Assembly (NCBI RefSeq): GCF_039533965.1
Contig: NZ_BAAAUN010000001.1
Location: 2,950,950-3,014,949, forward strand
Direction of reading: 5' to 3'
From: Microbacterium luteolum
GTDB taxonomy: Bacteria; Actinomycetota; Actinomycetes; Actinomycetales; Microbacteriaceae
DNA length: 64,000 nt
Shown here: piece by piece, positions 31,443 through 38,085 of the stretch
Numbering within the stretch: position 1 is the first letter of the stretch
Layout of the letters: each line of letters starts with the position of its first letter
Notes under the pieces: generated by a model
What the model saw: only the letters and a program-made list of their open reading frames with translations
Told to the model about the DNA's origin: nothing
Database searches by the model: none
Program-made: the position numbers and the translations under genes

Positions 31443-32282
31443 ATGGACTGGGTCGATGCACTGCAGGCGCTGCGCTCGACGCGCACGCCCGCGGTGATCG
31501 TGACGCTCGCCCTGGTGCGCGGTCATGCGCCGCGCAACGGCGGGGCGAAGATGGTCGTGTCGCCCGATGCCGTGTTCGGAACGGTCGGCGGCGGCAACCT
31601 CGAGGCCACGGCGATCGAACGCGCCAGGGGGATGCTCCGAGCGGGCACGGCGGAGCCGGAGCTGCTGGTGCTTACGCTCAGCGACAAGGCCGTCACCGAG
31701 TACGGCGTGCAGTGCTGCGGAGGAGAGGTCACGATCATGCTCGAACCGGTGCGCGTCACGCCCAGCATCGCGATCTTCGGCATGGGCCATGTGGGGCTGG
31801 AGCTGGCCCGCATCCTCGCGAGGCACGAGGTCGAGCTGCACCTGGTCGACTCGCGTCCGGAGATGCTCGCCGAGGAGCGGATCGGCACCCCCGGCGTTTC
31901 CGGTGTTTTCGCCGACAGCGTCGCACGGATCCAGGCGACCCTCGCACCCGTGCCCGAAGCCGTGCTGGCCGGCCTTCCGGCCGGCTCCCACGTCCTGGTG
32001 ATGACGCACGACCATGTCGAGGATCTCGCGGTCGTCGACATGTCTTTGCGCACTCCCGATCTCGCTTCGATCGGTTTGATCGGGTCGGCGTCGAAGTGGT
32101 CCCGGTTCCGCAAGAAGCTCACCGAGCTCGGCCAGACCGAGAGCGACCTGGCGCGGGTCGTGACGCCGATCGGCATCCCCGAGGTCGCGGGCAAGCAGCC
32201 CGCCGTGATCGCCGTCAGCGTCGCGGCCCGGCTGCTGCAGCTGATCGAGGAGGCGGCGACCGAGGAGGGTGCGGGTTCCTGA
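31443..32282 (+). CDS. xdhC: Xanthine dehydrogenase accessory protein XdhC
   Basis: A 279-residue chaperone that inserts sulfurated molybdenum cofactor into XdhB. Seen are the N-terminal VRGHAPRNGGAKMVV, VFGTVGGGNLEATAIERA with the family's Cys-rich YGVQCCGGEV, then a Rossmann-like C-terminal half (IFGMGHVGLELARIL, MTHDHVEDLAV, IGLIGSASKWSRF). It starts 12 bp after xdhB and is the last gene of the operon. Confidence 0.94.
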   Translation: MDWVDALQALRSTRTPAVIVTLALVRGHAPRNGGAKMVVSPDAVFGTVGGGNLEATAIERARGMLRAGTAEPELLVLTLSDKAVTEYGVQCCGGEVTIMLEPVRVTPSIAIFGMGHVGLELARILARHEVELHLVDSRPEMLAEERIGTPGVSGVFADSVARIQATLAPVPEAVLAGLPAGSHVLVMTHDHVEDLAVVDMSLRTPDLASIGLIGSASKWSRFRKKLTELGQTESDLARVVTPIGIPEVAGKQPAVIAVSVAARLLQLIEEAATEEGAGS

Positions 32283-32347
32283 AGTCGGACGTGTACCGTC
32301 GCCTGGCGGCTGGCGCCTCGGACGCCGTGGCGTGCATAGTAAAGATC

Positions 32348-32812
32348 GTGAGTGACTTGCACATACGAAGGGCACAGTCCGAGGAGCACGAAGAGATTTC
32401 AGCGTTGGCTCTCCGCTCGAAGGGGTACTGGGGGTATTCAGCCGAGTTTCTCGAAGCATGCCGAGCTGAGCTGACCTTCGATGCGACGACCTGTGGGTCA
32501 GGACTGATGTGGGTCGTGGCGCAAGACGATACGGTTCTTGGCTTCAGCCTCCTGAGGGGTGAGTCGAACGACGGCGAACTGTCGGCGTTGTTCGTTGATC
32601 CGTCCGCGATCGGCACCGGCTGCGGTCGAATGCTGCTTGAGCACACACTGCACGCTGCGCGGGCCGCAGGGTTCACGCACCTGGAACTCGACGCGGATCC
32701 AGGTGCGGAATCGTTCTATCTGCGCTTTGGGGCTCGACGGATCGGCACCTCGCCTAGTGGTTCCATTCCGGGCCGCGAGCTTCCCCGACTAGCAATCGCC
32801 CTCGCCGAATAG
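32348..32812 (+). CDS. GNAT-family N-acetyltransferase
   Basis: A 154-residue acetyltransferase. GNAT landmarks are the N-terminal IRRAQSEEHEEISALALRS, WVVAQDDTVLGFSLL, and the acetyl-CoA loop LFVDPSAIGTGCGRMLLEH, ending with LELDADPGAESFYLRFGARR. The start is GTG at 32348; no ribosome site is seen. Its more relaxed base composition and position just before the retron segment mark the start of accessory DNA. The substrate is unknown. Confidence 0.85.
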   Translation: MSDLHIRRAQSEEHEEISALALRSKGYWGYSAEFLEACRAELTFDATTCGSGLMWVVAQDDTVLGFSLLRGESNDGELSALFVDPSAIGTGCGRMLLEHTLHAARAAGFTHLELDADPGAESFYLRFGARRIGTSPSGSIPGRELPRLAIALAE

Positions 32813-32860
32813 CTGGGAGCCGTGGTCGGAGTAGCGGTCGAACGTTTCTCCGCGGCCCGG

Positions 32861-32968
32861 AAACGATCGCTTTCGGCTCGGTGCCACTCGGTTCCCCGGG
32901 GCGGTCGCCGCTAATGGGAGCCGGAACTTGGTTCTGGCAGAGGCTTTCGGCTGGTGTCGCGACCGCAC
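32861..32968. repeat. Left copy of degenerate direct repeat flanking retron segment
   Basis: Contains AAACGATCG (32861-32869) and a 46-bp block (32923-32968). That block matches 36688-36733 at 31 of 46 positions, in the same orientation and at similar spacing from AAACGATCG (62 versus 57 bp). It may mark old borders of the inserted segment. Confidence 0.4.
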
Positions 32969-33025
32969 GTACTAGCGATCGAGCTGAGGAGGGCGCATTG
33001 CAAGCAACTAGGTCCCTCCGGTGCG

Positions 33026-33544
33026 TTACCCTCCGACGAACCCCGTCGTGACGACCGTGAACCCCGCGGCTTCGCACCCTGCTAAGAGTTCAGCCCCGGG
33101 GGCGCCCTCTTCTGCGGAGAGGAGAATGTCGCTGGGCGTCAGGAGCGACTGCGGGTCGGTGGCAGCGTCCTGCACGACGGCGAGGGCGTCGGCGACCCGA
33201 CCGTCGTCAGCGGCAGGGATGTTGTGGAGAATCCGAAGAGCAAGGGCCGCCCACTGGTCCAGTTCGTCTTGTCCCATGCGTTCGCTGTAGAACGCGGATT
33301 GGACGTTGTGCAGGATGGTCTGCACGTCGCCCACTCCTGCACAAGTTCTTTCATCATCGGCTGCGGTTGACTCCGCCGTCGCCCCGCTTGTCGGGGTTTC
33401 TGTTGCCGTTACGGGCTGTTCAGTTGAGCCACTGTTGCTCACCTCGCCGGATGCACTGCAACCGGTCGCACTTGCGAGGATGAAGGCGCTAGCGAGGATC
33501 ACGGCAAACCGACGTGAACGGTGACCAGGTCGAGAGTGCGTCAT
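33026..33544 (-). CDS. Hypothetical lipoprotein
   Basis: A 172-residue secreted lipoprotein: RRFAVILASAFILASATGC gives a signal peptide with lipobox SATGC. A Ser/Thr-rich linker of about 40 residues follows, then a small domain (CAGVGDVQTILHNVQSAFYS, LDQWAALALRILHNI) with two further cysteines. No family is recognised. It has no close operon partner and lies between the degenerate repeats that flank the retron segment. Confidence 0.7.
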   Translation of the reverse strand: MTHSRPGHRSRRFAVILASAFILASATGCSASGEVSNSGSTEQPVTATETPTSGATAESTAADDERTCAGVGDVQTILHNVQSAFYSERMGQDELDQWAALALRILHNIPAADDGRVADALAVVQDAATDPQSLLTPSDILLSAEEGAPGAELLAGCEAAGFTVVTTGFVGG

Positions 33545-33681
33545 GGCGTGAGCCTACTTGTCGAACCGGTCGTCGGTGATGGCGGCGATGGAACGTGCCC
33601 TGCGCGCCGGACCCTGACGTACCTTTCGACTATTCGGGAGGACGCCTCCACGCAGCCGTGTAAGCGACGCCGTGGAGCGGG

Positions 33682-34056
33682 CTAAGCGCGGTTCCACTCC
33701 GGAGGCGGGTACTCGCTGAGGGGAGGCGGCGTAGCGAGCACTGCGAACAGCGTGCCTAGCACGAGGACCGTGCTCAGTCCCACGACGATCCATACCGTGG
33801 CACGCCGCGCGCGCGTCGGGCGGCCGCCGCGCAGTCCCACAAGCACGGCAGGGAACAGCAGCACGAGCCAGACCACAAGCGCGATGATGCCCATCCCGAT
33901 ACCGATCGCCCGCTCGCTATCATCCGAATCGGAGTACTCGATGACTGTGACGCCTGGACCCGCCAAGCTGAGGCCGGCTAGGCCCAGCATGAGATTGCCG
34001 AAAAGTCCGATAAGAGTGGCTGCGGTGGCCAGGGAGACACTTCCGACGATCCGCAC
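33682..34056 (-). CDS. Small membrane protein, 124 residues
   Basis: A three-helix membrane protein: LATAATLIGLFGNLMLGLAG, GMGIIALVVWLVLLFPAVLV and VWIVVGLSTVLVLGTLFAVL. A charged loop EYSDSDDSERA lies between the first two and a Pro-rich tail ends the protein. The start is GTG at 34056 with a weak GGGG upstream. No family is recognised. Some retrons carry small membrane effectors, but this gene is separated from the reverse transcriptase by an oppositely oriented gene, so no link is claimed. Confidence 0.6.
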   Translation of the reverse strand: MRIVGSVSLATAATLIGLFGNLMLGLAGLSLAGPGVTVIEYSDSDDSERAIGIGMGIIALVVWLVLLFPAVLVGLRGGRPTRARRATVWIVVGLSTVLVLGTLFAVLATPPPLSEYPPPEWNRA

Positions 34057-34239
34057 GGCCCCATATTGGCACGCGACAGCGCGTCAGCCCAACGCCCAGC
34101 CATCCACCGTCCGAAACGTCCGGCCACGGCTTTCATAGCCAGAGTGTGATGCGCCGCCGCGACGTAAACTGGGCGCCACTTTGTAGGATGCCATGACGAC
34201 GGTTCCGGTCGTTGTGTGGTGTCGGCATGGCGGTACTGC

Positions 34240-34266
34240 CAAAAACGATCGTTTGCGGCAGGCCAT
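34240..34266. repeat. Left 27-bp inverted repeat bracketing phosphatase and retron
   Basis: The 27 bp here, containing AACGATCGTTTGCGGCAGG, recur in inverted orientation at 36619-36645 with one mismatch. The copies enclose the histidine phosphatase, the reverse transcriptase and its RNA. AACGATCGTT is itself a palindrome. Confidence 0.7.
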
Positions 34267-34322
34267 GCGAACACCGAGTGGAGGGGCAAACTGATGCGCA
34301 GTGGCGTGCTTAGATCGCGGAT

Positions 34323-34946
34323 GTGAAAGAACTCTTCGTCGTGACTCATCCCGAAGCAACCCATCACGTGGAACATCGCGTCGGAGGATGGTTCGACTCG
34401 GAACTGACGGAGCGCGGAGTCGAACAGGCTCAACGAATTGCATCGGCCCTTGCAACGAGCGTGCAGCCGGACCCAGCGCTCTATAGCTCCGACCTTCGCC
34501 GGACCGCCCAAACCGCGGCTGCTATCGGGGAGCAACTAGATCTTCAGCCGATATGGCTGGCCGAGCTACGCGAGAAGTCTTACGGCGCCGGCGAGGGCAA
34601 GCCCGTTGCCTGGTTCCGTGAGAGATTCGTGCCGCCACCGCTGGACGGCGAACGAATGGACCATGACGAAGGTCTCGAAGGAGCCGAAACGAAACTTCAA
34701 TGGGCGCGTCGCGTTTACGCAGGCATGGAGAGGATCCTGTCCGACTCCCCTCGACAGAAGATCATCGTCACCCACGGAGGATCCGCGACCCTGGTCATCG
34801 CTCGCTGGATCGGCATGCCGCTCGATGCTCTCACCCACGCGAGTTTCACGGTGGACTCCGGCAGCATCACCCGACTGGTTGAAGACGACTACTTCCACAA
34901 CCGCACGGTCGCTCACCTGAACGACACCGCCCACCTCGGCTCATGA
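34323..34946 (+). CDS. Histidine phosphatase family protein (phosphoglycerate-mutase-like)
   Basis: A 207-residue protein of the histidine phosphatase fold. The first catalytic motif is unusual: FVVTHPEATHH in place of the common RHGE. LTERGVEQAQRIA, SSDLRRTAQTAAAIG (second conserved Arg) and the second His in VTHGGSATLVIA are as expected. GTG at 34323 is the start (the ATG two bases earlier reads straight into TGA). The gene converges on the retron reverse transcriptase with a 23-bp gap and is inside the 27-bp inverted repeats. Substrate unknown. Confidence 0.85.
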   Translation: MKELFVVTHPEATHHVEHRVGGWFDSELTERGVEQAQRIASALATSVQPDPALYSSDLRRTAQTAAAIGEQLDLQPIWLAELREKSYGAGEGKPVAWFRERFVPPPLDGERMDHDEGLEGAETKLQWARRVYAGMERILSDSPRQKIIVTHGGSATLVIARWIGMPLDALTHASFTVDSGSITRLVEDDYFHNRTVAHLNDTAHLGS

Positions 34947-34969
34947 GTTCGTGCCCGATCGCAGCGCGG

Positions 34970-36340
34970 TCACCAACGGATGCGCAGAAACTCCGCACGG
35001 AGTTTCTCGCCTCGCACGGGGTTCAGGCTCTCGACCCACGAGATGCGGCCGAGCAGATGTGCACGGAAATCGTCGAGTCGGCGGTGATTCTGAGTGCGCG
35101 GACCGTGCACGACGCAGTTGTGGATCGTCGCCTTGAGCCGGTCATAGTCGTCCCGTGAGACATTCGTTCGCTGGTTGACGACGATTCCGGTCACGCTCTG
35201 CCTGACGCCCTGGCGTCGGACCCTCGTTTTGTGCGGGTTGGCCACGTGCCCCTCGTCCTCGATGATCCGCTGCACACCACGGATGAAGGCATCAGGTCGC
35301 TTCGCGAGTCTCGGACCGCCGCTGAAGGCGAGGTCATCGGCGTATCGCGTGTAGGTCGCATCGACGGCATCCGCCCATCCCGTCAGCCGTGAATCGAGAC
35401 GCCGGATGGCGAGGTTGGCAAGCATCGGCGAGGAGGGAGCGCCCTGCGGCAGATGACTCGTGGCCAGAGCCCGGCGCAGGGCGAACCGCTCGTCGGATGA
35501 TCCGCCCGGTGGCATGGCAGCAAGCACGCGCGGAGGAACGGCGTTGGTGCACAGCCCGGTCACGACGTGCGCGACGGGTTCGGACAGTCCCGACTGCCGA
35601 AGCGCTCCGTAGATGCGACCGCCCGTCACGCGGGCGAAGAACGTGGTGAGGTCGAGGGATATGACGATGTCCGCCCCCGTGTGGCGCGCGGCCCCGGTGG
35701 CCGCGCTGCGACCGGGCATGAAACCGTGGGCGGCATCGTTCACGGCTATGAGGCCGAGTGCCCGCTCCAGAAGACTGCGCTGCGCGCGGCGCATCCGTTG
35801 CTCCGGGATCTCTAGCAACCGGGGGATCCGCCCGTGCCGTGTGCGCCACTCGTACCGGTAGTGGTGCAAGGCCCCTGAGCGTGCGCGCCGATTCCAATGT
35901 TTGGTGTCGGCGAACCACTGGAGCCGGCCGACGTCCAGATCGAGCAAGGCGGCGAGATCCGGGATGCTGTCGATGCGGGGAAGAGCACCCGAGGGCGGCT
36001 GCGACGCCGATGGACCGACGACGCGATGGTGGATACGCAGCGGCGAACGGCGCTCGTCGGCCTTGCGCACCGCTTCTGCGAAATCGGGCGAACGGAGGAT
36101 CACCGACGTCAGCAGTCGCGGGGCATCGACAGGCGGGCGGGCGAAGGAGGCCAAAACGTCGCCGACGAGCGGAGAGAGCCAACGACGGCGCGCTCCCATG
36201 ACGTACGCGCCGGCCTCGACGAGCTGATCCTTCGCCCAGACCTCTGAGGCGAGGAAAGCGTCGGCCAGAGAGGCGGCCACCGACGACGGCAGCGGTCGCG
36301 GCGTGCGCCCAAGCACGCGTGATGCGGTGGAGGGCGCCAT
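34970..36340 (-). CDS. Retron-type reverse transcriptase
   Basis: A 456-residue reverse transcriptase. A helical N-terminal extension (about 1-115) precedes the polymerase. Motifs in order are HGFMPGRSA (205-213), GAARH at the retron NAxxH position (216-220), SLDLTTFF with the first catalytic Asp (228-235), LPQGAPSSP (297-305), the catalytic YADD (333-336), NPHKTR (368-373) and VTGIVVNQRTNV (383-394), the VTG motif being characteristic of retrons. Length resembles the longer myxobacterial retron enzymes. ATG at 36340 lies 30 bp after the predicted RNA; TTG at 36376 would fall inside its inverted repeat. No obvious effector is fused. Confidence 0.9.
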   Translation of the reverse strand: MAPSTASRVLGRTPRPLPSSVAASLADAFLASEVWAKDQLVEAGAYVMGARRRWLSPLVGDVLASFARPPVDAPRLLTSVILRSPDFAEAVRKADERRSPLRIHHRVVGPSASQPPSGALPRIDSIPDLAALLDLDVGRLQWFADTKHWNRRARSGALHHYRYEWRTRHGRIPRLLEIPEQRMRRAQRSLLERALGLIAVNDAAHGFMPGRSAATGAARHTGADIVISLDLTTFFARVTGGRIYGALRQSGLSEPVAHVVTGLCTNAVPPRVLAAMPPGGSSDERFALRRALATSHLPQGAPSSPMLANLAIRRLDSRLTGWADAVDATYTRYADDLAFSGGPRLAKRPDAFIRGVQRIIEDEGHVANPHKTRVRRQGVRQSVTGIVVNQRTNVSRDDYDRLKATIHNCVVHGPRTQNHRRLDDFRAHLLGRISWVESLNPVRGEKLRAEFLRIRW

Positions 36341-36369
36341 CAGAGGGCAGCCGCGGAGCGGGCGCCGGG

Positions 36370-36538
36370 CGTGCAATGGCCTGCGTACGACTCGTCCATC
36401 AGTGCGGGCACCGGTCTGCGCGAAGCGCAGTAAGGCGCCTGCGGCGTTCGTTCCAGGTCAGACTGCGTACCCCGGGGTGACCCCGGAGAGAGCGGAACAC
36501 ATCGTGAACCACTCGCCTCGTCCGCAAGCCATCGCACG
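36370..36538 (-). ncRNA. Candidate retron msr-msd RNA
   Basis: On the minus strand the first 21 nt (36538-36518) and the last 21 nt (36390-36370) pair with 18 Watson-Crick pairs, two G-U pairs and one mismatch, as the a1/a2 repeats of a retron do. Inside are GTTCC/GGAAC closing a CCGGGG-TCA-CCCCGG hairpin (msr-like). A further hairpin has outer stem GGCGCC/GGTGCC and inner stem CTGCGC-TTC-GCGCAG (msd-like). The RNA lies directly upstream of the reverse transcriptase, as in known retrons. A -10-like TATCGT ends 6 bp before its 5' end. Confidence 0.75.
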
Positions 36539-36543
36539 GCGCC

Positions 36544-36549
36544 ACGATA
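36544..36549 (-). promoter_or_regulatory. -10 element of retron transcript
   Basis: TATCGT on the minus strand would start transcription at about 36537-36538, exactly at the 5' end of the predicted a1 repeat. No good -35 is seen. Confidence 0.45.
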
Positions 36550-36618
36550 GCAAGGAACACCGACGTCCGGATGGCATCGACCGCAGCCCCGGGCGGTTGG
36601 CCTGACTACGCGGCCCCG

Positions 36619-36645
36619 ATGGCCTGCCGCAAACGATCGTTCTTG
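36619..36645. repeat. Right 27-bp inverted repeat bracketing retron
   Basis: Inverted copy of 34240-34266 with 26 of 27 positions identical, about 75 bp upstream of the predicted retron promoter. Confidence 0.7.
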
Positions 36646-36733
36646 ATCGCACGATAGGCGCGGAAACGCGCGCCGGAAACGTGGATCAGAACCTGGTTTC
36701 GGCGGGAACTTTCGGTGGCTTTAGTGAGCGCAC
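36631..36733. repeat. Right copy of degenerate direct repeat
   Basis: AAACGATCG at 36631-36639 and the block 36688-36733 parallel the left copy at 32861-32968. This stretch and the following 120 bp contain no supported gene. Confidence 0.4.
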
Positions 36734-36854
36734 CCCTCGATCTCAAGAACGCCAACGACCTACCACCCGGTGGTGACGCCTCAAGCATCGCTTCAGGGGT
36801 GATCATCCCGGCGTAGTTCTGCGCTTACCCGCACGATCTTGATGATTCTTCGAG

Positions 36855-36911
36855 TTGACACGCATATCCGGCGTCTGTACCGTTCGGTACATACTGAACT
36901 GATTGGTTCAG
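36855..36911 (+). promoter_or_regulatory. Promoter and two palindromic operators of DUF1348-tetR operon
   Basis: TTGACA (36855-36860) and TACCGT (36878-36883) are exactly 17 bp apart. TGTACCGTTCGGTACA (36876-36891) is a perfect 16-bp palindrome covering -10. CTGAAC (36894-36899) and GTTCAG (36906-36911) form a second perfect dyad with a 6-bp spacer at the start point. Both are well placed for repression by the TetR protein encoded downstream. Confidence 0.7.
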
Positions 36912-36934
36912 AACAATCGCAACGAGGAGTCACC

Positions 36935-37402
36935 ATGTCCCGTCCGCCCGTTCCCCCGTTCACCGAAGAGACCGCCATTCATAAGGTCCGCGCCGCCGAA
37001 GATGGCTGGAACACCCGCGACCCGGAGTGCATCGCACTCGCCTACAGCGAGGACAGCTGGTGGCGGAACCGGTCCACCTTCGTCCAGGGTCGTCCCGCCA
37101 TCATCGAGTTCCTCACCGACAAGTGGGCTCGCGAGCTTGACTACCGGCTCATCAAGGAAGTCTGGGCCTACACTGGCGATGTGATCGCCGTGCGCTTCGC
37201 GTACGAATATCGGAACGCCGAGGGCCAGTGGTTCCGCGCCTGCGGCAACGAGAACTGGCACTTCGACAAGGACGGTCTCATGACGCACCGCCACGCGAGC
37301 ATTAACGATGTCGCGATCGACGAGTCCGAGCGCAAGTTCTTCTGGGACAACTCCGGCCCGCGTCCCGCCGACCACCCTGGTCTGAGCGAGCTCGGTCTCT
37401 GA
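36935..37402 (+). CDS. DUF1348 / NTF2-like family protein
   Basis: A 155-residue protein of the SnoaL/NTF2-like fold, DUF1348 type. Recognisable blocks are [51 protein letters not shown] and [20 protein letters not shown], ending in SERKFFWD. The function of the family is not established. ATG at 36935 follows CGAGGAG. The stop shares bases with the tetR start (TGATG), so the two genes form an operon under the palindromic promoter. Confidence 0.9.
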
Positions 37403-37968
37403 TGGCCAGAACCGTCCTCGACCGGTCTGACGTGGTCCTCGCCCTCGCTGGCGTTTTCCGCGAGCGAGGCTTCGAGGGTGGTTCGCTGTCCGTCATCAAG
37501 CAGAAGACCGGCATAGGTCGCGGCAGCCTCTATCACTTCTTCCCAGAGGGGAAGACGGATATGGCCCGCGCGGTGCTCGACCAAGTCAGTGATTGGTTCG
37601 AGGAGAAGATCTTCGTTCCGCTTCGCACTGCGACCGATCCCCAGAAGGCGATCGCGGACATGTCGCGTGCGGTTGCCGAGTACTTCATCTCTCGTCAATG
37701 CGTGTGCTTGTTCGCCGCGATCACGCTGGGTGAGGAGCAGGAGACCTTCGCCAAGGCGGTGAAGTCGTATTTCACCGAGTGGGTCGAAGCCCTCACGGGC
37801 GTGCTCCGCCTCGCCGGACTCTCACCCCAGGAGGCGGCAGACCGTGCGCTGGACGCGGTCGCTGTCATCCAGGGCGGGCTGATCCTGGCCCGCGCCTACG
37901 GCGACGACCAGACCTTCCTTGGGATCGTCGACCGCGCAGAAAACAACCTTCTCGCCCCCACCCGCTGA
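37402..37968 (+). CDS. TetR-family transcriptional regulator
   Basis: A 188-residue repressor. The N-terminal helix-turn-helix is VFRERGFEGGSLSVIKQKTG then GRGSLYHFFPEGKTDMA, typical of the TetR/AcrR type with a YHFF helix. The C-terminal ligand domain contains YFISRQCVCLFAAITLGEE with a cysteine that could sense thiol-reactive compounds. It is cotranscribed with the DUF1348 gene and probably autoregulates through the dyads at 36876-36911. Confidence 0.92.
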   Translation: MARTVLDRSDVVLALAGVFRERGFEGGSLSVIKQKTGIGRGSLYHFFPEGKTDMARAVLDQVSDWFEEKIFVPLRTATDPQKAIADMSRAVAEYFISRQCVCLFAAITLGEEQETFAKAVKSYFTEWVEALTGVLRLAGLSPQEAADRALDAVAVIQGGLILARAYGDDQTFLGIVDRAENNLLAPTR

Positions 37969-38085
37969 GCGGAAAACCGAGCCTGCGCCTTGTAGGTGTG
38001 ATGCACGGCCTGCACGACGAGATCGACGCTGAAGATCCGACCACCGCCGAGCTCCTCCATCATCGAACCCCGCAAGCAGTATCGA

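Follow-up and report, generated by a model that had tools for sequence, protein, structure and literature searches.

A predicted two-part retron in Microbacterium luteolum: a structured RNA conserved in relatives and a retron-type reverse transcriptase

Our analysis of a 64,000-nt stretch of Microbacterium luteolum DNA (NZ_BAAAUN010000001.1), here referred to as the window, revealed on the minus strand a structured RNA followed by a reverse transcriptase gene, and this locus is very probably a retron. Judged by covariation, the RNA structure appears to be preserved by evolution in related bacteria. The architecture appears to be an unusual two-part one, made up of RNA and enzyme, with no separate effector gene found beside them. 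The initial annotation had spoken of a complete-looking retron, and this holds for the RNA and the enzyme, whereas no third gene was found. The features of the locus, in the order in which the minus strand is read, are as follows.

36544..36549, minus strand: −10-like element TATCGT, presumed promoter of the RNA; in 38 of 55 loci a TANNNT starts 9 to 11 nt upstream of the model start
36518..36538, minus strand: arm a1, the 5′ arm of the closing stem (covarying)
36517, minus strand: candidate priming (branch) guanosine directly 3′ of a1, a G in 54 of 56 loci; putative role after the available text of PMC6868368
36491..36513, minus strand: first msr hairpin, with double changes at 10 of 10 pairs
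36470..36488, minus strand: second msr hairpin, CTCCGGGG-TCA-CCCCGGGG, with 99.6% of cells paired in 30 rows and 98.7% in 56 rows
36404..36442, minus strand: msd double stem (outer 36442-36434/36412-36404, inner 36430-36425/36421-36416)
36391..36403, minus strand: unpaired stretch before a2, with G36391 in 56 of 56 loci; likely the region where reverse transcription would start
36370..36390, minus strand: arm a2, the 3′ arm of the closing stem (covarying)
34970..36340, minus strand: retron reverse transcriptase of 456 aa, with YADD, VTG and, in region X, GAARH
34948..36583, minus strand: cassette common to the window and the related locus L038 (96.8% identity over 1637 bases; both flanks differ beyond it)

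Fold, covariation and orientation of the RNA

The arms 36538-36518 and 36390-36370, when recounted, form the 18 Watson-Crick pairs, two G-U pairs and single mismatch (G·A) first annotated, and the second msr hairpin, the double msd-like stem, TATCGT, YADD and VTG were likewise located in the window. Thermodynamic folding had been proposed as a check on the RNA; the 169-nt minus-strand transcript (36370-36538) has a minimum free energy (MFE) of −89.3 kcal/mol (z −4.5), and none of 200 dinucleotide shuffles, at −69.3 ± 4.4 kcal/mol, was as low. The first msr hairpin has 10 pairs in the family model and is partly open in the window, and the second is nearly invariant and therefore offers little covariation of its own.

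Relatives of the enzyme were drawn from 199 family genomes, 198 genus genomes and a contig scan, and the stretches upstream of them were read. Pairwise alignment to the window RNA beat each locus's own shuffles in nearly all stretches; for two of three Modestobacter loci (enzyme 42 to 44% identical), simple pairwise alignment was no better than shuffles, and these loci, which were used in the model, were placed by the conserved hairpin. Thirty of 39 upstream stretches entered an unfitted alignment, from which duplicates and close likenesses (L008, L031-L034, L038, L043, L044 and L047) were omitted. RNAalifold predicted 37 pairs in these 30 rows, 23 of them with double changes. When a 54-pair structure was scored on the same rows, 38 of the 54 pairs showed double changes and 84.7% of cells paired, compared with 36.6 to 44.3% in slid controls, and the structure was not equalled by any of 500 shuffles in any one of five measures. 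Covariation of the arms in homologues, on which the initial annotation had staked its reading, was borne out, with changes on both sides at 18 of the 21 pairs and with 75.4% and 88.2% of cells paired in the two halves. In a 56-row alignment, which was made by the covariance model and thus leans towards the model structure, all 21 arm pairs had double changes and the halves paired at 90.7% and 95.6%.

One annotated helix fared less well. GTTCC and GGAAC, said to enclose the second msr hairpin, are complementary in the window, and over the 30 relatives they paired in 59.9% of cells (slid controls, 26.0 to 38.8%). None of 500 shuffles reached its value for paired cells, and 225 did so for the number of pairs with double changes. 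The hairpin lying upstream, which draws on the same GTTCC and is the one chosen by the window's own MFE, had double changes at 10 of 10 pairs and 72.3% of cells paired. The GTTCC/GGAAC helix thus stands above its slid controls, yet is weaker than the hairpin formed from the same bases, and it was set aside.

The ends of the RNA were also compared across loci. The promoter count covers 55 loci, that is, 56 minus L022, whose match is truncated; besides the 38 loci given above, 10 carry TANNNT at other offsets within 45 nt of the model start. The last base of a1, A36518, is an A in 53 of 56 loci, and the context of the candidate G36517 is mostly GAGG or GAGA. The guanosine motifs listed in the available text of a 2019 review are TAGC, CAGA, CAGC, GAGC and ACGC (PMC6868368); the position of the candidate fits retrons, whereas its motif differs.

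A covariance model built from the 30 relatives was then run on loci outside that set and detected the RNA at 27 of 27 additional loci carrying the enzyme, including two from Burkholderia (L090 and L128 belong to one genome and were counted once). At the order and class level, 23 of 23 loci matched with E values of at most 1.2 × 10−7, all on the strand of the enzyme and upstream of it, with a slight overlap of its start in L116 and L119. The other four (L014, L089 and the Burkholderia loci L094 and L095) matched with E values of at most 2.3 × 10−6. No convincing match was obtained at 19 loci with other reverse transcriptases (best E value of 1.8). In a scan of the 199 family genomes, run with stricter filters at which some weak matches are lost, the RNA was strong in 23 genomes, which are exactly those with a strong enzyme match (E values of at most 1.4 × 10−81), and it was not found in five further family genomes with weak enzyme matches (E values of 1.4 × 10−25 or worse). 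A match without the enzyme in G055 (E value of 0.003, 30.8 bits) was marginal and was taken as chance. Within its own genome the window RNA is the one match of the covariance model, and a second reverse transcriptase was not detected there.

Several side observations were made in the same scans. L125 has a second, weak RNA match (E value of 0.00058) at the same place on the other strand. The enzyme gene looks broken in G098 (L023/L029), where it lies in two frames, and in G871 (L120), where it has one stop; the RNA is still there in both genomes.

The orientation of the RNA bears on whether it could be a cis-acting leader (a riboswitch or attenuator) of the enzyme mRNA instead of a template. 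A leader would fit its place in the 5′ region, where 29 nt separate a2 from the ATG of the enzyme, and its strand, which is that of the enzyme in 19 of the 23 family genomes as well as in the 23 order- and class-level loci. However, the RNA is on the opposite strand in three family genomes (and on another contig in one, G153), and these three, G045 (L022), G116 (L015) and G171 (L016), are all the sampled carrier genomes of one genus, g46. The RNA is divergent there and points away from the enzyme, an arrangement that speaks against an obligatory leader; in L015 and L016, the strand of the RNA itself carries a TANNNT 7 nt upstream of the model start. Rfam release 15 also gave nothing at gathering scores in the window, and at a relaxed threshold the sole match in 36300-36620 was a riboswitch with 12.2 bits against a cut-off of 36; we consider a leader scarcely credible. 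The orientation in g46 suggests instead that the RNA may be able to act in trans.

Lineage and domains of the reverse transcriptase

The enzyme contains the Pfam domain RVT_1. Its best PADLOC models, RT_other (580.6 bits) and RT_outgroup ("retron", 541.7 bits), match over almost the whole length and score 478 and 456 bits, respectively, on a Burkholderia relative; both are protein models only, so that the comparison covers the enzyme and not the RNA. The PADLOC web server itself carries msr-msd covariance models, according to the available text of its description (PMC9252829). Among NCBIfam models, those for retrons scored under their cut-offs (St85, 143 against 235 bits; TIR, 142 against 600; Ec67, 138 against 450), and Drt2 (32 bits, cut-off 390) and group II (43 bits, cut-off 300) were also below cut-off and lower than the retron models. 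A PDB search with a profile of 70 relatives returned as its best 14 matches 12 named retron enzymes and two named only RNA-directed DNA polymerase, with group II and DRT2 enzymes ranking after them. The best solved relatives by sequence were those of Ec86 (Eco1; E value of 1.4 × 10−25), to which YADD and VTG align, whereas the N-terminal part of the window enzyme has no match there; Ec86 also has a separate effector, none having been found at the window locus.

Placement outside the retron clades had been named as a possible refutation of the initial annotation. In a small tree of 37 proteins the enzyme family (15 rows, support 100/99) groups with retron enzymes, beside PADLOC types XI, I-C and III-A, and a branch with 100/99 support separates these from one group II and one DGR enzyme; the placement is limited by long branches (St85 of Klebsiella and the DGR enzyme) and by an outgroup of only two rows. 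Together with the scores on retron-type PADLOC models, this grouping speaks against such a refutation. Over 70 sequences the catalytic motif is conserved as Y in 70, A in 67, D in 70 and D in 70, and VTG as V in 68, T in 67 and G in 65. Region X reads GAXXH (G in 66, A in 67, H in 70), so the usual retron NAXXH was not encountered. In the available text of the 2019 review, NAXXH is present in 14 of 16 validated retrons, and Ec48 and Mx65 are substituted at N (PMC6868368); because these two validated retrons deviate, the motif is usual but not strictly defining.

Two further groups of reverse transcriptases from the same family of bacteria were noted on the way. L024, L025, L026 and L049 have YSDD in place of YADD and VLG in place of VTG, group with III-A-type enzymes and are without a convincing match of the RNA. 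L027, L050, L051, L053 and L054 are short (319 to 357 aa) and stand apart from both other groups in the tree.

The enzyme carries an N-terminal extension of approximately 120 to 160 aa. RT_XIII, which we take to be the PADLOC type of the Mx162, Mx65, Sa163 and Ne144 enzymes, was the next best model (283.9 bits), matching the core only; since its match begins at approximately residue 118, the N-terminal domain is not common to the two at that sensitivity. The myxobacterial enzymes do have an extended N-terminus, as does the window enzyme, and Mx65 likewise lacks the N of NAXXH (PMC6868368, available text). No Pfam match was obtained for the N-terminal piece of the window or Modestobacter enzymes at an E value of 10, and the Burkholderia piece gave DUF7114 below cut-off (E value of 0.045). 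A search for standalone copies of the domain yielded one 121-aa match among 90 candidates. The N-terminal 130 residues had a higher pN than the core in four of four comparisons. Over the gene as a whole, dN/dS was 0.13 to 0.26 against eight of the nine relatives read, and none of the 10 genes contained a stop; on these values the reverse transcriptase is under purifying selection.

A standalone enzyme with an RNA also resembles the two-part DRT9, as portrayed in the available text of PMC12489045, and the locus might then encode a defence reverse transcriptase that uses an RNA template but is no retron enzyme, being instead DRT-like and protein-primed. The retron-type PADLOC scores far exceed those of NCBIfam Drt2 and group II, however, and the a1/a2 stem with its conserved G is the layout of a retron, which makes this reading very unlikely.

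Search for an effector and the proposed two-part system

To look for a partner gene, we clustered open reading frames of at least 80 aa within 7 kb of the enzyme at 35 loci, namely, the window and 34 others, some of them near-duplicates and some cut by contig ends; identities of at least 92% were not used as links, and clusters in at least four loci were considered. The largest cluster, with 35 loci, was the enzyme itself, the sole fixed element: no fixed neighbor of at least 80 aa within 7 kb, and no recurring mobility gene, was found in the 35 loci. Clusters of 34, 16 and 14 loci overlie the enzyme or the RNA and were read as other frames of the same DNA, those of nine and five loci had scattered distances and strands, and the remaining clusters, of at most seven loci, either overlapped the RNA or enzyme or were situated in flanks common to few, mostly close, loci. 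Neither a linked effector gene nor a known fused effector domain, as would mark a tripartite retron, was thus detected. A missing effector has precedent, since some retrons seem to be without proximal effector genes according to the available text of a 2022 review (PMC8867640), and Retron-Bth1 is described, in the available text of PMC12548924, with a likewise unclassified enzyme and no obvious effector. In the incomplete gene table of the Burkholderia locus L095, the annotated neighbors included no evident effector; the other Burkholderia locus, L094, is unannotated.

By analogy with other retrons, the enzyme would bind the msr hairpins, and synthesis would be primed from the 2′-OH of the candidate G36517. 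Copying would start near 36392-36396, just before a2, and proceed backwards across the msd stem as far as about 36446, yielding a branched RNA-DNA product of roughly 55 deoxynucleotides. Less surely, this product might serve in phage defence as those of other retrons do, here with no dedicated effector gene. The best candidate for an effector or docking function is the enzyme's private N-terminal domain, to which we assign this role only putatively. A broader reading, which we hold tentatively and would not yet call probable, is that of a widespread two-part retron lineage, spanning Actinomycetota and Burkholderia, in which the enzyme and its msDNA are the whole system, no effector takes part and a divergent transcript can provide the RNA in trans.

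The available text of the 2019 review confines validated retron enzymes to Gamma- and Deltaproteobacteria, with actinobacterial ones mentioned as putative (PMC6868368); the 2022 review names further groups, and the word actinobacteria is absent from its main text as available (PMC8867640). No description of the RNA was found in the literature searched, which was covered in part, and therefore we do not claim its novelty. In the present case, covariation, together with a model that recovers the RNA at loci outside its training set, defines the RNA of an actinobacterial lineage, which is thereby ready for immediate cloning and testing. A truly two-part system would be relevant to the question of whether an effector partner is necessary for retrons, and would provide a high-GC retron for producing DNA in actinobacteria.

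Genomic setting of the cassette

The cassette shared with L038 is placed differently in the two genomes. In L038 it adjoins the counterpart of the gene at 31443-32282 of the window, which we take to be xdhC-like, instead of the phosphatase gene, and its orientation relative to its surroundings is opposite to that in the window. The window region 32292-38085 is a variable region between two blocks common to L038; there, it holds different genes and the retron differently placed and oppositely oriented. At the cassette edges (41 bases around each), the longest direct repeat was 6 bases and the longest inverted repeat 5 bases. An empty site was sought in G322 and G319, which have the neighboring phosphatase gene at 96% and 82%, respectively, and do not belong to the genus genomes in which the enzyme was matched; in both, the opposite flank of the site gave no match.

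The setting bears on two further readings. The retron might use an effector encoded elsewhere in the genome, or one smaller than 80 aa, as the lack of a fixed larger neighbor would allow; yet close relatives carry the cassette at different places, so that an unlinked partner would be needed in each host, and we regard this reading as unlikely, although it deserves consideration. The retron could also be a near-neutral selfish cassette without host function. The distribution is patchy, with a close enzyme in only 7 of 198 genus genomes and a strong enzyme match in 23 of 199 family genomes, and the different sites in close relatives would fit such an element. The low dN/dS speaks against this reading, however, as do the lack of a mobility gene recurring as a fixed neighbor and of any edge repeat longer than 6 bases, and we judge a selfish cassette improbable. 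Returning to the two-part retron, its enzyme was compared with phage and plasmid records: 12 of 50,697 phage records matched, at 24 to 31% identity, as did 125 of 72,556 plasmid records, three of which cover at least 80% of the query, and among the best 40 of these 125 plasmid matches the two closest were from Burkholderia, at 40 to 43%.
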